A stretch of 64,000 nt of DNA from Komagataeibacter intermedius TF2. GTDB lineage: Bacteria; Pseudomonadota; Alphaproteobacteria; Acetobacterales; Acetobacteraceae. Of the stretch, positions 39,658 through 48,310 are shown piece by piece. The DNA lies in contig NZ_BANF01000031.1 of assembly GCF_000964425.1 (NCBI RefSeq), positions 62,001 to 126,000 on the forward strand, read 5' to 3'. The stretch's first letter is position 1; each line of letters starts with the position of its first letter. The notes beneath the pieces are model-generated. The model had not been told where the DNA came from. It saw nothing but the letters and a program-made list of their open reading frames with translations, and searched no databases. Made by a program: the position numbers and the translations under genes.

Positions 39658-40359
39658 TCAGGCGAGGGTATCGACCAGAATGATCTCGCTATCTTCCAGG
39701 GCGCGTATGTGCAGTGTTTCGGTGTCGGAAATGGCGGCGCCATCACGTTCACCGACCGTCGTGCCCTCAATGTCCACCCGGCCCTGCGCGGGAACCAGAT
39801 AGCCAAGCCGCGTGGCGCCCAACGGGTACTGCGCCACCTGTCCCGCCTTCAGCGTGGCCCCCAGCACGCGGGCATCGGCATTGATCGGCAGGGCGTCCTC
39901 ATCCCCCGCATGGCCCGATGCCAGGACCACGAACTGTCCGGCCCGGTCCGCCTTCGGGAACGATCGCGTTCCCCATGAGGGCGCATGGCCCGCGCGGTCG
40001 GGCATGATCCAGATCTGGAACAGGCGGGTGGCCACGTCCTCGCGGTTGTGTTCGGCATGGCGGATCCCGGTGCCTGCCGACATGACCTGCACATCGCCCG
40101 CTTCCGTCCGGCCTGTGTTGCCCAGACTGTCGGTGTGGGTGATCGCGCCTTCGCGGATATAGGTAATGATTTCCATATCCCGGTGGGGATGCGTGCCAAA
40201 GCCGGTGCCCGGCGCGATCATGTCATCATTCCAGACCCGCAGCGCGCCCCAGTGCATGCGCGCGGGGTCATGATAATGCGCGAACGAAAAATGGTGGCGG
40301 GCATCCAGCCAGCCATGGTTGGCGTGACCCAGCCGGTCAAAGGGACGTACTTCAATCAT
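39658..40359 (-). CDS. Pirin-family bicupin (YhaK-like)
   Basis: 233-residue bicupin. The metal site of the N-terminal cupin is intact: His57 and His59 (GTHPHRDME), His101 and Glu103 (GIRHAEHN). E. coli YhaK/YhhW relatives have quercetin 2,3-dioxygenase activity and respond to oxidants. ATG 40359 (MIEVRPFDRL) has GGAG 12 bases upstream and matches the family; a longer frame to 40455 is rejected. It is divergent from a LysR-type gene across a 187-bp intergenic region, which probably controls it. Confidence 0.92.
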   Translation of the reverse strand: MIEVRPFDRLGHANHGWLDARHHFSFAHYHDPARMHWGALRVWNDDMIAPGTGFGTHPHRDMEIITYIREGAITHTDSLGNTGRTEAGDVQVMSAGTGIRHAEHNREDVATRLFQIWIMPDRAGHAPSWGTRSFPKADRAGQFVVLASGHAGDEDALPINADARVLGATLKAGQVAQYPLGATRLGYLVPAQGRVDIEGTTVGERDGAAISDTETLHIRALEDSEIILVDTLA

Positions 40360-40451
40360 CGGGTTTTCTCCATATGCCAGTGTTGGCCATGGACAGCACG
40401 GTATCGTCCCGATGGGTTCATGAATACAGAAACAAAGGAAAGTCATTGTTT

Positions 40452-40472
40452 CCATTTATTGACCGTAAATGG
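40452..40472. promoter_or_regulatory. LysR-type operator candidate between pirin and LysR genes
   Basis: CCATTTA-TTGACCG-TAAATGG is a perfect 7+7 inverted repeat of 21 bp, containing the T-N11-A form expected for LysR regulators. It lies about 75 bp upstream of the regulator start. A second dyad, GGAAA-N7-TTTCC, is at 40437-40453. Confidence 0.5.
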
Positions 40473-40546
40473 CCAGGAAGGGGAGACAGGTTCCGGACGA
40501 TCAGTTATGGAAACAGCCAGTGGGAACCATTGCGTGGGACGGTGCA

Positions 40547-41479
40547 ATGCGGCTGCCGGATTTTGAGGCATGGGCCATCTTTGCAAAAGTGGCGGAACGC
40601 GGCTCCTTCGCGCGCGCGGCGGAGGACATCCAGCTATCGAAACCCACGGTATCCAAGGCCATAGGCCGACTGGAGCAGTCGCTGGGTGTCGCGTTGTTCA
40701 ACCGCAATTCACGACAGATGTCCCTGACTGAAACGGGACGAAGGCTGCTGGGGCATGCCAGCCGCATACTGGCTGAAGCGGAGACCGCGGAAATGGAGGC
40801 GCGCGGCGGCACCCTGACGCCATCGGGCCTGATACGGGTCGCCGCCCCCATGGTGTTCGGGAGCCGGCACCTTGCGCCCCTGCTGCCGGATTTTCTTGTG
40901 CGTTACCCGGAAATAGACATCACCATCGATTACAGCGACGCCATCGTGGATCTTGTGGCCGGTGGCTATGACATGGCGCTGCGCATTGCGTCACTGGCTG
41001 ATTCCGCCCTGCTGGCGCGGCGGCTGTGTACGGTGCGGCTGCTGCTTGTGGCCACGCCGGAATATCTGGAGCGGATCGGCCATCCGGATGATCCGCGCGC
41101 GCTGGAAGGCCACAAAAGCTTTGTTTACACCAATACCTCCGCCCCCGGCATGATCCGTCTGCGGCAGGTGTCGGACGGGCGGGAGGTTGTCCTGTCACAG
41201 ACCGCGCGCCTGCGGGCGGATAATGCCGAAACCTTCCTGCCGGCACTGGAGGCCGGGCTGGGGTTCGGGCTGTTTCCGGAATTCATGGTGTGGGACGGGC
41301 TGAAATCCGGCAGGTTCGTGCGTGTCCTGCCGCAGTGGGAGGCACCTCCCGTAGCCCTGTACCTGGTCACGCCCGCCAGTACCCTGCGGCCCATGCGGGT
41401 GACGGCCTTTATCGATTATCTTGCCGGGGCGTTTGTCCATCCGCCCTGGGCGAAGGACAATGCGCCGGTCGGGACATGA
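40547..41479 (+). CDS. LysR-type transcriptional regulator
   Basis: 310-residue regulator. HTH at about residues 1-60 (FAKVAERGSFARAAEDIQLS, KPTVSKAIGRLE) and a LysR substrate-binding domain (GLIRVAAPMVFGSRHLAP to the end). MRLPDFEAWAIF at 40547 is the family-like start; in-frame upstream codons to 40469 are unconserved. Divergent from the pirin gene; such pairs are common, with the regulator activating pirin in response to a small electrophile or quinone. Effector unknown. Confidence 0.9.
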   Translation: MRLPDFEAWAIFAKVAERGSFARAAEDIQLSKPTVSKAIGRLEQSLGVALFNRNSRQMSLTETGRRLLGHASRILAEAETAEMEARGGTLTPSGLIRVAAPMVFGSRHLAPLLPDFLVRYPEIDITIDYSDAIVDLVAGGYDMALRIASLADSALLARRLCTVRLLLVATPEYLERIGHPDDPRALEGHKSFVYTNTSAPGMIRLRQVSDGREVVLSQTARLRADNAETFLPALEAGLGFGLFPEFMVWDGLKSGRFVRVLPQWEAPPVALYLVTPASTLRPMRVTAFIDYLAGAFVHPPWAKDNAPVGT

Positions 41480-41513
41480 CACGCCCGGCGGATGGTCGGG
41501 CGTGTCATGCGGG

Positions 41514-42110
41514 TCAGGCCAGCTTTCTGGCCAGTTCCGCAACATGCTGGCCCAGGAAGCGTGCGCCATCCAGTTCAGTGGCGCCGGGCTGGCGGGAACC
41601 GTCGCCTGCGGCGATCGTCGTCGCGCCATAGGGCGAGCCGCCGGTGACTTCATCCACCCGCACCTGTCCCTGGAAACTGTACGGCAGGCCGCTGATCACC
41701 ATGCCATGATGCAGCAGGTTGGACATGAGCGAGAACAGGGTCGTTTCCTGCCCGCCATGTTGTGACGCGGTGGAGGTAAAGACCGCGCCAACCTTGCCAA
41801 TCAGCGCGCCCTTTGCCCACAGCCCGCCCGTCTGGTCCCAGAAATTGGCCATCTGCGATGGCAGCCGCCCGAACCGCGTGGGCGCACCGACAATGATCGC
41901 GTCATATTCGGGCAGTTCCGCCGTGGTGGCGATGGGGGCGGCCTGTTCCGTCTTGAAATGGTGGGCCTTGGCCACATCTTCCGGCACCAGTTCGGGCACG
42001 CGCTTCACGTCCGCCTCCAGCCCTGCGGCGCGGACGCCTTCCGCTACCGCATGGGCCATGGTTTCAACGTGGCCGTAGGTGGAATAGTATAATACGAGAA
42101 CCTTGGACAA
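41514..42110 (-). CDS. wrbA: NAD(P)H:quinone oxidoreductase WrbA (type IV)
   Basis: 198-residue flavodoxin-like FMN protein performing two-electron quinone reduction, which avoids semiquinone radicals. FMN loop YYSTYGHVE at the N-terminus, GAPTRFG and [15 protein letters not shown] are WrbA signatures. I set the start at TTG 42110: AAGGGG lies eight bases upstream and the product begins [13 protein letters not shown], the family N-terminus and usual length. An ATG at 42134 would add eight unconserved residues. Confidence 0.93.
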
Positions 42111-42249
42111 TGTCGTAACCCCTTGCTGTGTCATGGATCGTTTCCAACAGGAACCTTCCTGACAATACGGCCCGTCGCGCAGGTGCATACGCCAAAATCG
42201 GAAACGCTTCGTTTCCCGTATTTGCGCCGGTCACGCGCGGGCAGGGGCA

Positions 42250-42936
42250 TTATGTGCCCGCAAGCGGCTCCCATCCCCCTGCGCTGCGGCCAAACATGGG
42301 AATATGGCCAAGGGCATGCACCAGTCCGGGCGCGTCCGGCCCCACCTGTTGCAGGGCGTCGCGCCATGCCCACCCTTCGGTCAGCACCGCCGTAATGCCG
42401 ACGACCCGTGCCTGCACCTGCTGCATGAGTGCGATGGCCGCAACCGCCGTCCGGCCCGTGTTCAGCACGTCATCCATGACCAGAACGCGCCTGCCGCGAA
42501 CCCGCTCGATCAGGGCGGGATCAAGGTACAGGCGCTTGGCCTGATCGGGACTGGTGGAGGATGTGAGTGGCTGCGACAGGGCGTCGTCATACCAGAATTT
42601 GCGCGAGTGGCCCAGCGCGACATAATCGTCAAAACCAAGGTTTTCCGCCACGGGGCGGGCATAGGCCAGACCCATGGTGGGCACGCCGACAATGACCTCC
42701 GGCCGCAGTTCCCGCGCCAGATCGGTCAGCAGGCGGACCAGCGCGTGTTCAACCGCGAATGCCGTCTGGTTGGACATGAGCAGCGCGATGGCCTTTTCCC
42801 CGTCCGGCAACGGACGTAATGGCAGGACCAGCGTGGAGCCGTCACGCAGGCGTACGGGATAGGTGGCGTCGTGGCAGGGCCGGTCCCCGGTCATGGAGGA
42901 CGGGTAAAATCGGGTCTGGTAGGGCGGTATGGACAC
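42250..42936 (-). CDS. Phosphoribosyltransferase (adenine/purine PRTase-like)
   Basis: 228-residue type I PRTase. The PRPP-binding motif VLVMDDVLNTG is at 151-161, preceded by an antiparallel arm, and VIVGVPTMGLAYARPVAENL provides the first loop. Start at GTG 42936 is supported by GGAAG six bases upstream; ATG 42894 is the alternative. The family joins a nucleobase to PRPP, but the base specificity of this subgroup (often annotated only as phosphoribosyltransferase) is not known. Confidence 0.85.
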   Translation of the reverse strand: MSIPPYQTRFYPSSMTGDRPCHDATYPVRLRDGSTLVLPLRPLPDGEKAIALLMSNQTAFAVEHALVRLLTDLARELRPEVIVGVPTMGLAYARPVAENLGFDDYVALGHSRKFWYDDALSQPLTSSTSPDQAKRLYLDPALIERVRGRRVLVMDDVLNTGRTAVAAIALMQQVQARVVGITAVLTEGWAWRDALQQVGPDAPGLVHALGHIPMFGRSAGGWEPLAGT

Positions 42937-43035
42937 GGATGCTTCCGGTTGGGGCTGACTGTATGATGGACCGGCAGCAGGGCAGCCGCCGGTCCGTTAC
43001 GATAGCCGTATGGTCTGCCGCGCGCCAGTCCCCGA

Positions 43036-43350
43036 TTAGCGCCACGCCCCGCTTTCAACCATGCACTGGGCATAGAAATTGCGGCGTGACGCCATGCTGA
43101 CGCCAACCGTCACGCTTTGCGACGTGACATTATCCAGTCCCCGGGCGGAACATTTTGCATCTATGTTGCGATATTCGCTGCTATCGGGCGGCAGGACGGC
43201 TGTATGGCCATGGAAATGGCCGAATTCCGTATTGACCTGCCGTGGGTGACGTTTCGTCGTGGGAATGTGGATACGGTGTGTCCGGCCCAGTGCGGGCGCA
43301 CCCATCAGGACAATCCACAAAACGGGCAGGACGGACAGTATGGTTTTCAT
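43036..43350 (-). CDS. Small secreted protein, unknown function
   Basis: 104 residues with a clear signal peptide (MKTILSVLPVLWIVLMGAPA, cleavage near ALG-RTH). The mature part is about 80 residues, with two Cys (DAKCSARG and AQCMVESG) that could form a disulfide, and is rich in His, Thr and Ser. No domain recognised. Start at ATG 43350 gives the signal peptide immediately. Stands alone between the PRTase and the Mop gene. Confidence 0.55.
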   Translation of the reverse strand: MKTILSVLPVLWIVLMGAPALGRTHRIHIPTTKRHPRQVNTEFGHFHGHTAVLPPDSSEYRNIDAKCSARGLDNVTSQSVTVGVSMASRRNFYAQCMVESGAWR

Positions 43351-43466
43351 GATCACACAGGCACCTTGGAATATGTCGGATGCACCATATGCGCGCAACG
43401 TGACCAGCCTGTGTTTCGATCCTGTCTTTATGTATCTGGCAGATTAGGAATTGTTCATGTCGTGGA

Positions 43467-43502
43467 CGCACGCCGCCCCTCCCCGTGGGCGGACGGCGTG
43501 CG
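43467..43502 (-). terminator. Hairpin downstream of the Mop gene
   Basis: CGCACGCCG (43467-43475) and CGGCGTGCG (43494-43502) form a perfect 9-bp stem 11 bp past the Mop stop codon. There is no clear U-tract. It would close the DyP-encapsulin-Mop transcript if the three are co-transcribed. Confidence 0.5.
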
Positions 43503-43513
43503 GATGATGGACC

Positions 43514-43720
43514 TTACACGCCCACCATGACATCGGACGCCTTGATGATGGCCGTCGCCGCTTCGCCGACTTTCAGCTTCAGGTCGGCAACCGCTTCATT
43601 GGTGATCGATGCGGTGACAATGGTGCCACCGCCAATGTCGATGCCAACATGGGATGTGGTCGCACCCTTGGTAATGGATGTGATCTTGCCCGCGATCTGG
43701 TTGCGTGCGCTGATTTTCAT
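43514..43720 (-). CDS. Molbindin: single Mop-domain molybdate-binding protein
   Basis: 68 residues, exactly one Mop/TOBE domain: MKISARNQIAGKITSITKGA, VGIDIGGGTIVTASITNEAV and AATAIIKASDVMVGV. Such molbindins assemble into hexamers that store or buffer molybdate in the cytoplasm. GGAAGGA precedes ATG 43720 at good distance. It lies 116 bp downstream of the encapsulin gene on the same strand, followed by a hairpin. Whether it belongs to the encapsulin transcript is unknown; no modABC or cofactor genes are nearby. Confidence 0.92.
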   Translation of the reverse strand: MKISARNQIAGKITSITKGATTSHVGIDIGGGTIVTASITNEAVADLKLKVGEAATAIIKASDVMVGV

Positions 43721-43836
43721 TTTATGTCCTTCCTTGGGTTTCGGCCTGCCGGCGGCAATCACGAAATGGGGCGCAGTGCAGACCGTGGCCACGGCAGAGG
43801 TCACGGGCATTCGCCCACATTGCGGCGGGCGGCCCT

Positions 43837-44643
43837 TTACGCGCCGGCCTGTGCGATCACGACCGAGGCCTCGGTCGTCAGCACGCGGAATGTGAAGCTT
43901 TCCTGCAGGTACAGGTCCACCGATGTGTCGGAATGGCTGATATAGCCGATCGAGACATCCTGTCCGATCGACAGTTCGAAATCCCCCCCGCGGGTGGATA
44001 CGATATAGGCGCCTTCAATGGCCGGTGCGCAGATGATCCTGCCTTCGGTCATCCGTTCGATATGGCGCAGTACGGGGTAGCCTTCCTCGTTCCCGCCGCT
44101 GACGGCGGCAAAGGCGCGGGCACCCAGCACGACGGCGTACGGGCCGTTCACGCCCGCAATGCGCAGTTCATTCAGGCCATCGGCAATGATGGCGGGATAG
44201 TCACGCGCGGATGCGGGCAGGGTGAATTTCGCGTTGGATGTATCCTGCCCGATGCCGGTGATCCCGGCGGCGGCGTAGCCGTCGAATATCGCGCGGTCCT
44301 CGGCATAGGCGATTTTCTTTGCCGCGTCCTTCAGCGGCTGCCAGTCGGAATCCAGCGCGCCGCGTTCCACGTCGTCAATGGCGTCACGGTCCAGCGTAAA
44401 GGGCACGCGCAGTTCAACCAGCGGCAGCACCTTGCGCTGCAGCGCCCGCACGCCGTCCGCCGGGCTGTCGATACGGGCCGTGTGGCCGGTGTCCACCGCG
44501 GCAAAGCCGACACCGCGGGCATCGGGCACGTCCACCACGCGCCGTCCGGCAAGGTAGCGGCGCAGCGTGCGGGACGCCTCCTGTTCGATTTCCGCCCATG
44601 CGGCGTCGGAAATGGGGGCAAGGTTCCGGTGCAGGTTGTTCAT
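43837..44643 (-). CDS. Encapsulin nanocompartment shell protein (Linocin M18 / family 1)
   Basis: 268-residue HK97-fold shell protein. Family features: N-terminal helix NLAPISDAAWAEIEQEA that binds cargo peptides, the E-loop region following VGFAAVDTG, DDVERGALDSDWQPLKDAA, then P-domain and A-domain sequence including YPVLRHIERMTEGRII and the C-terminal LYLQESFTFRVLTTEASV. DyP-type encapsulins of this size usually form 60-subunit, roughly 24-nm shells. It starts one base after the stop of the DyP gene, and its ribosome-binding site (AAGGAAG) lies inside the codons for the DyP targeting tail. The shell should enclose the DyP peroxidase in the cytoplasm. Confidence 0.95.
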   Translation of the reverse strand: MNNLHRNLAPISDAAWAEIEQEASRTLRRYLAGRRVVDVPDARGVGFAAVDTGHTARIDSPADGVRALQRKVLPLVELRVPFTLDRDAIDDVERGALDSDWQPLKDAAKKIAYAEDRAIFDGYAAAGITGIGQDTSNAKFTLPASARDYPAIIADGLNELRIAGVNGPYAVVLGARAFAAVSGGNEEGYPVLRHIERMTEGRIICAPAIEGAYIVSTRGGDFELSIGQDVSIGYISHSDTSVDLYLQESFTFRVLTTEASVVIAQAGA

Positions 44644-44644
44644 G

Positions 44645-45670
44645 TCAGGCTTCTTCCTTCAGTGACCCGATGCCAAGTGATCCGGCAGGTGTGGGGCGTG
44701 TGTCTTCATTGCTGTCCGCAGGTGCTGCCGCCGTGGCGTCATATGCCGGGGCGGCGTCAAGGAAATCGGCGGTGGGAATGAAAAACAGCGTGCCTGTCAC
44801 CGCGCGGCTGACATCCAGCAGGCGGTCGTAATTTCCCGGCGGGTTGCCAATGAACATGTTGTCCAGCATCCGTTCGACCCGGGAAGGGGATTTGGCGTAA
44901 CCGATGAAATAGGTTCCGAATTCGCCCCGGCCCACTTCGCCAAAGGGCATGTTGTCGCGCACGATCTGCAGCTGTTCGCCATTTTCCTCGATATTGGTCA
45001 GGACGTTGTGGGCGTAGCTGGGCTTGGCGGCTTCGGGCAGTTCAATGTCCGACAGTTTCCTGCGGCCAATGATCTTTTCCTGCTGCTCGACAGGGATCGC
45101 GTCCCATTTCTTCAGGTCATGCAGGTATTTCTGGGTAATGACGTAACTGCCACCGGCAAAGTCCGGGTCCTCGTCCCCGATCAGGGTTGCCTCGGTCGCG
45201 GCCTGGTTGACCGGGTTTTCCGTGCCATCGACAAAGCCAAGCAGGTCGCGGGCGTCGAAATACTTGAAGCCATGGACTTCATCGACCACCTGCGCCGCAC
45301 CGTCCAGCCGGGCGGTGATGGCGGCGGCCAGTTCGAAACACAGGTCCATGCGCGTCGCGCGGATGTGGAACAGCAGGTCGCCGGGGGTGGAGGGCGCTTC
45401 ATGGACGCCGTGTATGGCGCGGAAGGGGTGCAGTTCCCTGGGTTTCGGCCCCCTGAAAATACGTTCCCACGCATCCGCCCCGAAACCCATTACGCAGGAC
45501 AGTCGCCCGTCGGGAATGCGGAATCCCACGCCACGGAGCATGGCCGACAGATCCCCGCACAGGTCGCGGACCGTGGCGTCATGTCCCTCTCCGGGGTCGA
45601 GCGTGAAAACGAGGAAAATTGCCGCACTGGTCAATGTGGTGTCAACGGGCTGTGGTGTCGCTGAAGGCAC
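44645..45670 (-). CDS. DyP-type heme peroxidase, encapsulin cargo
   Basis: 341-residue B-type dye-decolorizing peroxidase. GFVDGTENP places catalytic Asp148; His221 (SYAHNV) is the expected proximal heme ligand and Arg238 (QIVRDN) the distal arginine. The ferredoxin-like halves are otherwise normal, with KYLHDLKKWDAIPVEQQEK between them. After residue ~305 a flexible Ala/Pro/Thr/Asp linker leads to the C-terminal targeting peptide GSLGIGSLKEEA (330-341), which matches the cargo-loading consensus LxIGSLK. It is therefore packaged into the encapsulin encoded directly downstream. It uses H2O2 to oxidise an unknown substrate. First gene of the operon. Confidence 0.95.
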   Translation of the reverse strand: MPSATPQPVDTTLTSAAIFLVFTLDPGEGHDATVRDLCGDLSAMLRGVGFRIPDGRLSCVMGFGADAWERIFRGPKPRELHPFRAIHGVHEAPSTPGDLLFHIRATRMDLCFELAAAITARLDGAAQVVDEVHGFKYFDARDLLGFVDGTENPVNQAATEATLIGDEDPDFAGGSYVITQKYLHDLKKWDAIPVEQQEKIIGRRKLSDIELPEAAKPSYAHNVLTNIEENGEQLQIVRDNMPFGEVGRGEFGTYFIGYAKSPSRVERMLDNMFIGNPPGNYDRLLDVSRAVTGTLFFIPTADFLDAAPAYDATAAAPADSNEDTRPTPAGSLGIGSLKEEA

Positions 45671-45983
45671 GCCTTACTCCCTGCATGGCGCCATGAAGAA
45701 CATGCGGCAGACCCGGCGCGGCGTAGGTCTGCGGTTGACAGGGGATTCTATATGGTTCGGACCGCCAGCAAAAGGGCCGCCACGATGATTTCTCCCTGTG
45801 TTCTGACATGATGCGCGTGCATCCCTGCATCCGCCCGGGCGTTTGCAGGCAGTTTTCCGCCCATGTGCCGGGATATGTGGCCGTCGGGCGACAGGCGGCC
45901 ATGTTGGGAAGGGCGCGGGAGGGATATTCAGGCATGCCCGCCCGGAATATATTTCCGCGCCACTGTTCAAGGAGGGAGAGGGA
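45671..45983. other. Divergent promoter region between DyP and the hydroxylase genes
   Basis: About 313 bp. CATATAGAAT at 45754-45745 on the reverse strand is a possible -10 for the DyP-encapsulin operon. No perfect OxyR-like or LysR-like palindrome was found. AAGGAGG near 45970 belongs to the hydroxylase gene. Confidence 0.4.
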
Positions 45984-46700
45984 ATGGCGAAAAAGAAGAC
46001 CATCTATCATCTGACAAAGGGCCTGCGGGACAGGGTCGATGCCTTTATCATGCGGTTTTCCCTATTGCCGGATCAGGCGCTTTTTGATCCCTACATCATG
46101 CAGTGGGTCCGTGACCTAGAACGGAACTGGGAAAGAATTCGTGACGAGGCACTGTGCATGGCCACGACCGATATTCCCTCGCTTGGTGAGATTTCCCCCG
46201 ATCATGGTCGGATCGCGGCGGATCGGCGCTGGCGGTCCTTCTTTCTGGAAGGTTACGGGTACAAGCGGCAGGAAAACCGTGCCCGCGTCCCGACGACGGC
46301 GGCGCTGATCGACCGGATCCCCAATTTATGCACCGCCAGCTTTTCCGTGCTGGAACCCGGCTGTCACATTCCCCGCCACCGGGGCATGACCAAGGGCATG
46401 CTGACCTATCACCTTGCGCTACAGGTGCCTGCCGACCGCGAAAACTGCTGGATCCAGTTCGAGGAAGGCGACAGGCTGCATGTCTGCCCCTGGACGGCGG
46501 GCAGGTCGATCCTGTTTGACGATACCTATAACCACGAAGTGTGGAACAACACGACCGACACACGCTACGTCCTGCTGATCCAGATCCGGCGTCCGTGCCG
46601 GTGGCCCGCGCGACTGCTTATGGATGTCTTCTTCCAGGGTGTCCGGTATTCACGTTTCGTTCAGGATATCCGCAAGAACCTGGACCGTCGCGGCGTATAA
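45984..46700 (+). CDS. Aspartyl/asparaginyl beta-hydroxylase family protein (AspH/LpxO-like)
   Basis: 238-residue Fe(II)/2-oxoglutarate dioxygenase-fold protein. The iron site reads His132-x-Gly134 in PRHRGMTKG and His184 in DDTYNHEVWNN, with conserved TYHLALQVP and CWIQFEEGDRL. Gly replaces the Asp of the usual HxD motif, as in eukaryotic AspH, where two His suffice. Bacterial relatives (LpxO) hydroxylate lipid A acyl chains. A hydrophobic or basic C-terminus (PARLLMDVFFQGVRYSRFV) may associate with the membrane. Strong AAGGAGG before ATG 45984. Divergent from the DyP-encapsulin operon. Confidence 0.85.
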   Translation: MAKKKTIYHLTKGLRDRVDAFIMRFSLLPDQALFDPYIMQWVRDLERNWERIRDEALCMATTDIPSLGEISPDHGRIAADRRWRSFFLEGYGYKRQENRARVPTTAALIDRIPNLCTASFSVLEPGCHIPRHRGMTKGMLTYHLALQVPADRENCWIQFEEGDRLHVCPWTAGRSILFDDTYNHEVWNNTTDTRYVLLIQIRRPCRWPARLLMDVFFQGVRYSRFVQDIRKNLDRRGV

Positions 46701-47113
46701 CCCGCGTTTCCCCATTTCCCTTTCCGTAGTCCAGCCTGCGGGGCGCAGGGATGGCATGATCTCCATGTTTCCGCAGCCCCTCCCGGCAGGCTGTGCCGGC
46801 GGCGCAGTCATCCCGTGTTGCCCGCGCGGCATGGCGGAGGAAAGCGATGTCCGGAACAGCGACCGGCCCCCGTGTGCGTGACGACTGAATGCCGGTAGGA
46901 CTTTTTCGAAAATACTATTTAGAAACAGCATATTATGATGGATCAGGACGAAGGGGCCCGCCTGCTTTTTCCATGACGATCCGCCTTGTGAAAATTTTGT
47001 CTGTTTCAGTGTGCTGAAACGCGAAATACGCCTATTCCATACAGATGTGGAAAGTGCCACAAGGCAGCGGAAAACCGGCGTCATGACACGGACGCCATTC
47101 AAAGCAGGTGATC
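46701..47113. other. Intergenic stretch of about 410 bp, no gene seen
   Basis: Contains an AT-rich patch around 46900-46940 (ATACTATTTAG, CATATTATGATG) that probably includes the promoter of the MFS gene. A reverse frame is open but has no ribosome-binding site or motif. Confidence 0.4.
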
Positions 47114-48310
47114 ATGCTGTTCAAAACCCTTCCTCCGGGCGCCATGGTCGGGCTGTGTGCCCTGTTTGCCTGCACCTTTACCGCCCTGACCAGTGAAGTC
47201 GCCCCCGTTGGCATCCTGATCGAGATGGCGCAGGCCTTTCACATCCGCGAAGGCCAGGCCGGGCTGGCCGTCAGCGCCTTTGCGCTGATGGTCATGATCG
47301 CCGCGGTTCCCCTTACGATCATGACGGCGCATATCGACCGCAAGCGGCTGGTCCTGCTGTCCCTGCTGGGATACGTCGCATCCAACCTTGCGGTGACCGT
47401 GGCGCCAACCTTTCTTATCCTATGTGCCGGGCGCCTGATCGGGGGGCTGGCGCATGCGCTGCTCATGTCGATCGCGGCGGCCTATGCCGCGCGGCTGGTG
47501 CCGCAGAACATGACGGGACGGGCCATTTCGTTCGTATATGGCGGGACGTCACTCGGCATGGTGCTGGGTGTGCCGGGGGCTGCGGCCATCGGGCATATGG
47601 TCGGCTGGCGCATGGCCATGGGCATCATGACCGTGCTGGCGGTGGTGCTGACGGTCTGCATCGCGTTTTTCCTGCCGCCAGTTTCGTCGCCAGTGCAGGT
47701 CAGGGAAGGGTTGCCCGCACTGGCGGGCCGCCGGGCGATGCGGATATTCCTTGTTGTTGTGGTGGTGGATGCGGTGTTCTTCTTTGCCCATCACCTGCTG
47801 TACACATACATCACGCCGCTGCTGCTGGCGCATGGGCTGTCAACCGGGACGCTCAGCATCGCGCTGCTGATGACGGGCGGGTTCAGCATTCTTGGGCTAT
47901 GGGCGGCGGGGCTGGTGGTGGACCGCTGGCCTGCCGCAGGGCTGCTGGGCAGCGGGCTGGCCATGCTGTTGGGCATGGGGCTTATGTACGGGCATATCCT
48001 GTCGGGCTGGATGGCCGTGGCGGCGGTGGGCCTGTGGTGTATCGGCTATTCCGCCGTCGTGCCGTTTGTCATGTCCGGTGCGATCCGTGCCCGCGCCACG
48101 CGGCCTGATGTTGCGGGGGCGGCGATCAATGCCGCATGTAACATGGGCATATTGCTGGGATCGGCCGTAGGGGGAGAAGTGCTGTCCAACGGAGGATTTG
48201 CCATCCTGACCCCGCTATCCTGCGCCATGGTGCTGCTGGGCATGATGGTGGCCATGGTCAATCCCGCGGCCTTCCCCCGCGCGCTGACCCCAGCCGAGGA
48301 AGAAGGCTGA
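47114..48310 (+). CDS. MFS exporter, DHA1 family (AraJ/SotB-like)
   Basis: 398-residue 12-segment transporter. TSEVAPVGILIEMAQAFHI after the first helix and IDRKRLVLLSLLGYVASNL (motif A region) are typical of sugar-efflux/chloramphenicol-efflux DHA1 transporters; motif C-like YGGTSLGMVLGVPGAAAIG follows. ATG 47114 is preceded by GCAGGTG; a GTG at 47108 is a two-residue alternative. It exports sugars or drugs with H+; the substrate is not identifiable. Confidence 0.9.
   Translation: MLFKTLPPGAMVGLCALFACTFTALTSEVAPVGILIEMAQAFHIREGQAGLAVSAFALMVMIAAVPLTIMTAHIDRKRLVLLSLLGYVASNLAVTVAPTFLILCAGRLIGGLAHALLMSIAAAYAARLVPQNMTGRAISFVYGGTSLGMVLGVPGAAAIGHMVGWRMAMGIMTVLAVVLTVCIAFFLPPVSSPVQVREGLPALAGRRAMRIFLVVVVVDAVFFFAHHLLYTYITPLLLAHGLSTGTLSIALLMTGGFSILGLWAAGLVVDRWPAAGLLGSGLAMLLGMGLMYGHILSGWMAVAAVGLWCIGYSAVVPFVMSGAIRARATRPDVAGAAINAACNMGILLGSAVGGEVLSNGGFAILTPLSCAMVLLGMMVAMVNPAAFPRALTPAEEEG

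Follow-up and report, generated by a model that had tools for sequence, protein, structure and literature searches.

A DyP-type peroxidase and family-1 encapsulin gene pair in Komagataeibacter intermedius and its lineages in the genus

The peroxidase and shell genes and their docking parts

The DNA analysed (the window, 64,000 nucleotides from Komagataeibacter intermedius TF2) carries on its minus strand a gene for a DyP-type peroxidase (DyP) followed by a gene for an encapsulin shell protein, and the two make a two-gene unit. The DyP reading frame (44645..45670) starts with GTG at 45670 and reaches a TGA ending at 44645, encoding 341 amino acids that end in ...TPAGSLGIGSLKEEA. One base separates this stop from the ATG at 44643 of the shell gene, which runs to 43837 (43837..44643) and encodes 268 amino acids. 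Pfam profiles matched both products, Dyp_perox_N/C with E values of 3.3e-32 and 3.1e-58 and Linocin_M18 with 1.7e-93, and the shell scored 341 bits with the NCBIfam model encap_f1 (cut-off 100). By these scores the shell belongs to the Linocin_M18/encap_f1 family of family-1 encapsulins, and by homology to solved shells it would have the HK97 fold. The cargo gene adjoining such a shell is also present, with the 1-base gap and a C-terminal targeting peptide of the form GSLGIGSLK. The original prediction, a B-type DyP with C-terminal GSLGIGSLKEEA and then a 268-residue Linocin-M18-type shell, was confirmed by the position of both genes and by their profile matches. The 3.88-Mb genome contains one DyP match and one encapsulin match, and the nearest named shell gene, among the best 80 of 200 relatives, was that of K. 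oboediens LMG 18849 (98%).

The DyP has two Dyp_perox domains and the conserved Asp, His, Arg and Asn of the heme site. These heme-site residues, D148 (in GFVDGTENP), H221, R238 and N240, were invariant in the alignment of 119 distinct DyPs. Its nearest solved relatives were encapsulin-associated DyPs, with DypB entries lower in the list. These relatives point to a B-type enzyme.

Loci for comparison were collected in two sets. The encapsulin search over the family covered 397 genomes, 59 of them with encapsulin, and gave 66 match rows, from which 64 stretches were taken; the rows left out were the second piece of a broken gene in G367, lying inside a stretch already taken, and a 76-residue fragment in G253. 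A scan of named genomes added 80 further loci, the best 80 of 200 relatives, making 144 in total. DyP adjoins 133 of these 144 shells, and the other 11 are three with the shell at a contig end (L073, L097, L161) and eight with another cargo. In the family set, DyP lies no more than 16 bases from the shell gene at 55 of the 64 loci, and eight have another cargo; at the remaining locus, L073, the shell ends at the contig end and DyP is on the next contig. The distance from DyP stop to shell start was -8 to 16 bases at the 55 family loci, and at the 78 named loci it was 94 bases in three, 1419 in L129 and -20 to 14 in the others.

The targeting peptide GSLGIGSLKEEA (44648..44683, minus strand) agrees with the consensus GSLxIGSLK given in passages of PMC10960027. 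The core of the peptide, written as [ST]Lx[IL]G[SN]L and located in the final 30 residues, was present in 133/133 encapsulin-neighbouring DyPs (119/119 distinct), loci which were all picked via encapsulin and with some genomes in both sets, so that the count describes conservation within the class and no independent draw. The strict form GSLxIGSL[KR] was found in 100 of the 133. Across the 119 aligned DyPs, the residue of the window was matched in 71% of cells in the core of the enzyme (5-300), in 28% in the linker (302-328) and in 87% in the peptide (330-339); the linker ahead of the peptide is not conserved. The tail is conserved among close relatives, the point at which the original prediction had left itself open to refutation, and this supports its claim that the C-terminal consensus is the dock for DyP in a family-1 encapsulin. 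An SD-like AAGGAAG lies in the last codons of the peptide and would serve as the SD of the shell gene, and part of the KEE tail of DyP may be held by this overlapping ribosome-binding site. A second cargo was also looked for in the 3.88-Mb genome with a degenerate DNA pattern for the peptide, a search which excludes strict peptides only. The pattern matched at two places (backwards control, one), of which one is the window DyP and the other, unrelated, decodes to RLDIGTFK if read in that frame.

The peptide-binding residues of the shell are R34, D38, D229 and I230 in the numbering given in part of PMC10960027. Three of them are identical in the window shell, and position 230 is V, a conservative change found in 25% of aligned shells, where the Klebsiella shell has I. 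R34 and D38 were invariant and D229 was 99% conserved in 118 aligned DyP-associated shells. Old annotations under the name linocin M18 treat such a shell as a bacteriocin or protease that is secreted, which would make DyP a chance neighbour, and the Pfam name Linocin_M18 and some plasmid records of a "bacteriocin family protein" agree with this. The family-1 encapsulin score, the peptide-bearing DyP adjoining 133 of 144 shells and the docking residues that are kept all speak against that reading, and we regard it as most improbable. The unit is almost certainly a standard family-1 DyP encapsulin.

The best solved relatives of the pair were 9e5e and the Klebsiella pair 8u50/8u4z. Residues 1-262 of the window shell aligned to 9e5e with 375.6 bits and residues 1-261 to the Klebsiella shell 8u50 with 373.4 bits, and the DyP aligned through the peptide to the encapsulin-associated DyP 8u4z (E 4.7e-151). 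The window shell is 62-63% identical to plasmid-borne enterobacterial shells, and 9e5e and 9e4r are probably entries of the enterobacterial particle of PMC12140327. The Klebsiella pneumoniae DyP encapsulin (8u50, 8u4z; PMC10960027) and the widespread enterobacterial one (PMC12140327) are like the window pair in having DyP before the shell. Their peptide, GSLNIGSLK, is the same motif as GSLGIGSLK of the window, and their docking residues are those of the window except for I230 to V, at a shell identity of about 62%. The DypB-encapsulin of Rhodococcus jostii and the mycobacterial DyP-encapsulin have the same cargo class and packaging logic, as described in passages of PMC8776678 and PMC8346489, and are farther from the window pair in sequence than the enterobacterial ones.

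Neighbouring genes and distribution in the family

Passages of PMC10960027 and PMC12140327 describe the enterobacterial operons as associated with transposons and as having a formate dehydrogenase gene upstream and a gene for an RpoH-like sigma factor. The window pair differs from them in its flanks, which are an OlsC/LpxO-like hydroxylase gene and a mop gene. No formate dehydrogenase, RpoH-like sigma gene or transposase was found among the eight neighbouring ORFs scanned in 39658-48310, so the enterobacterial four-gene island is not present in this interval. ORF 43036-43398 matched no family in the Pfam/NCBIfam scan of these eight neighbours.

The gene next downstream of the shell gene, on the same strand (43514..43810, minus), encodes a molybdate-binding Mop/TOBE protein by profile matches. 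It stays close to the shell gene in the window lineage, and as a third operon member it would tie the shell to molybdate or a molybdoenzyme. However, mop occurs at only 4 loci, all of the window type, among the 64 family loci, and in L079 the gap exceeds a kilobase; this tie is very unlikely, and we rejected mop as an operon member as it is found at window-type loci only.

On the other side, a gene of the Asp/Arg hydroxylase family (45984-46700, plus strand), OlsC/LpxO-like and below the NCBIfam cut-offs, is divergent from dyp and has the intergenic region in common with it in the window lineage. Lipid hydroxylation by its product could be relevant to acid tolerance.

Eight loci of the Acetobacteraceae (L084, L086, L088-L093) have shells 39-49% identical to that of the window beside small ferritin-like genes. 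The cargo passed the cut-off of PF22277 EncFtn in seven of the eight and was rubrerythrin-like in L093. These ferritin-like proteins have tails like targeting peptides, that of L091 deviating most. PF22277 was matched in 10 of the 397 family genomes, seven over the cut-off; the 14 genomes drawn from the genus gave no match. Genome G055 has both a DyP encapsulin (L038) and a ferritin encapsulin (L092).

In the shell tree, four loci from family genomes (L031, L032, L036, L069) fall among rows that do not belong to the acetic acid bacteria. Acidisphaera is presumably also a genus outside the acetic acid bacteria. The DyP-encapsulin is present in Acidisphaera sp. S103 (L135), though PMC8776678 in one passage calls the cluster exclusive to acetous species.

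Lineages and upstream regions in Komagataeibacter

Encapsulin was found in 19/19 genomes of the genus, in two settings. The window lineage is at one site in six of them (G000, G399, G391, G324, G379, G397), with shells 89-100% identical to that of the window. Its neighbours there are mop, a phosphoribosyltransferase gene, wrbA and the OlsC-like gene, and the site spans two contigs in G324. The other lineage is in 14 of the 19 in a different setting, with 16 copies and shells 63-70% identical to that of the window. G324 carries both lineages, and G354 and G401 have two copies each of the other lineage. In G222 the shell is cut by a contig end. The shell gene of G367 (L094) is in two overlapping pieces in different frames, the result of either pseudogenization or an error in sequencing.

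A tree of DyP plus shell, made by a quick method from 55 hand-chosen rows of the 133 loci with linker and peptide removed, split the genus. Five window-lineage rows grouped (support 80) with L039, from G351, which we take to be Gluconacetobacter tumulisoli, and together they fell within a group of 14 rows that also holds A. nitrogenifigens, A. sacchari, L033 (presumably G. diazotrophicus) and rows from beyond the acetic acid bacteria. The remaining 11 genus rows were in a separate 41-row clade (support 100). The genus as a single group was rejected (p-AU 5.1e-7), and a shell-only tree of 84 hand-thinned rows agreed with the split. In the shell tree of the 55 rows, eight window-lineage rows, including L039, L100 and L101, lay on one side of a branch with support 89; the DyP tree needs two changes for these eight, so that the wider grouping is not firm. 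Transfer would be the simpler reading of the split, with old duplication and loss as the alternative. No empty site was seen among the 13 genus genomes lacking the window lineage, because nine have the phosphoribosyltransferase gene without a close OlsC-like gene and four have the reverse.

The window lineage has a conserved 5' leader (45671..45745, minus strand) directly before DyP, with an inverted repeat (45707-45732), a 12-base palindrome CATGGCGCCATG (45684-45695) and a ribosome-binding AGGGAG. A 90-base query holding the leader had one copy in each of the six window-lineage genomes and none in the other 13 of the 19. In the last 75 bases before the DyP start, the window and L039 were 80% identical, compared with 77% in the coding region; at 130-330 bases upstream identity was 43%, which does not exceed that of reversed controls (50-54% in alignments with many gaps). 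The leader is absent from L100 and L033 (41%). A search of Rfam with 45600-46050, up to E 10, gave a single match at E 9, to a human lncRNA family and outside the leader, and folding of 45640-45755 was no better than shuffles (z -0.27). Judged by eye, a putative hairpin in the leader has one double change in its favour, in G. tumulisoli, while a pair is broken in G391 and G379, and for this reason we do not claim a structure. The possibility of a short upstream ORF within the leader was dropped, as differences between loci, by eye, change its residues or shift its frame.

The window also has a putative promoter, CTTTTGC ... TATAGAATC (45744..45774, minus strand), of which some form exists in nine loci of the wider window lineage. 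This pattern or a variant was found in 9/118 upstream regions and in none of the shuffles, having been written after seeing the sequences. A generic sigma-70 scan gave no match.

The other acetic-acid-bacterial lineage has a different element. With a spacer of 13 to 18 allowed, CTTGNC-N15-CNTATNNT was matched in 31/118 upstream regions, compared with 0.1 in shuffled sequence; these regions include many loci of other families, and the pattern again followed inspection of the sequences. It begins 82-94 bases before the first conserved codon, and 249 in L057. The form CTTGYC-N15-CCTATGCT precedes dyp at 31 loci in the range L040 to L108. A looser pattern, run without shuffle control, gave 34 matches in 33/118 regions, of which 33 have C before TTG, 27 have CC before TAT and 33 share one spacing. 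The element, possibly a heat-shock promoter, resembles the RpoH2 promoter CTTGCC-N15-16-CCTATCT, quoted for Sinorhizobium in a passage of PMC4843759, but is also like a plain sigma-70 site.

In the 19 genus genomes the exact form had 13 matches in 11 genomes, with 37 for the backwards control. By position, 11 of the 13 precede the DyP operon, covering 11 of the 16 other-lineage copies. With this share and this control, the element looks operon-specific within the genus and, in that form, no general promoter class. In the six window-lineage genomes CTTGYC-N15-CCTATGCT is absent before the DyP operon of that lineage.

We tentatively propose that Komagataeibacter has two independently acquired DyP-encapsulin lineages, substituting for each other at different sites and each with its own cis-element (the 75-nt leader; the CTTGYC-N15-CCTATGCT promoter). 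This is a possible reading and not the favoured expectation. If it is true, the same nanocompartment is wired to two different triggers in sister species.

Probable role and meaning for the genus

The two genes probably share one transcript, with translational coupling between them. By analogy with studied homologues, DyP oligomers would have C-terminal tails that are flexible and that bind, through the GSLGIGSLK motif, to the inner side of the shell protein, and the enzyme would be packed during cytosolic assembly of a T=1 shell about 24 nm across. Once enclosed, the heme enzyme would reduce H2O2 and oxidize small co-substrates that pass the pores. Experimental precedents for DyP encapsulins are described in parts of PMC10960027 and PMC12140327. 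The literature matches listed, judged by titles and abstract openings and including few subscription journals, showed no data on particles, activity or expression for any acetic acid bacterium.

The original prediction had also tied the compartment to periplasmic oxidation. Encapsulins are known as cytosolic compartments, and on inspection the DyP N-terminus VPSATPQPVDTTLTSAAIFLVF lacks a signal peptide, so that the peroxide reached by the shell would be cytosolic or diffusing. The part of the earlier reading that stands is a family-1 encapsulin with DyP cargo docking by its C-terminal peptide; the periplasmic link is not supported.

A role in lignin or aromatic breakdown, instead of stress defence, was suggested in PMC8776678, by analogy with Rhodococcus DypB, and the plant-linked distribution argued in the passages of that paper agrees with it. 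As to the enzyme itself, the window DyP is related to DypB (3qnr, E 3.2e-112). We presume that entry to be the Rhodococcus protein. On inspection the DyP lacks an export signal, so that polymeric lignin would hardly get to it, and no recognised aromatic-catabolism gene was found in the eight neighbouring ORFs scanned, though pirin and the WrbA quinone oxidoreductase are there. We consider the lignin role unlikely. Defence against peroxide or acid stress seems the most likely role and would be congruent with the highest DyP activity at low pH reported in a part of PMC12140327, while published work on DyP encapsulins still calls their biological role speculative.

The window pair is a real, ordinary and previously reported DyP encapsulin. 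The DyP-encapsulin pair in acetic acid bacteria is already known from PMC8776678 (2021), whose linocin M18 cluster, consisting of encapsulin and Dyp-type peroxidase genes, is the same cluster; its passages place it in all Komagataeibacter type strains, in 10/11 Gluconacetobacter and in 21/28 Acetobacter species, and consider transfer. They also describe a shell tree in which genera are not clearly demarcated, and two Gluconacetobacter with double clusters. The chromosomal sites, promoters and peptides of the lineages, given here, are absent from those passages, and the lineage pair with different upstream elements is possibly new, on evidence that is suggestive only.

The locus is a clear example of a nanocompartment that is already known, here from bacteria that make vinegar and cellulose, and one candidate novelty is removed by it. 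The new value is modest and regulatory, namely two lineages with separate conserved upstream elements. Such separate elements would make the trigger of the DyP-encapsulin testable with simple reporters in hosts that live in acid and are non-pathogenic.
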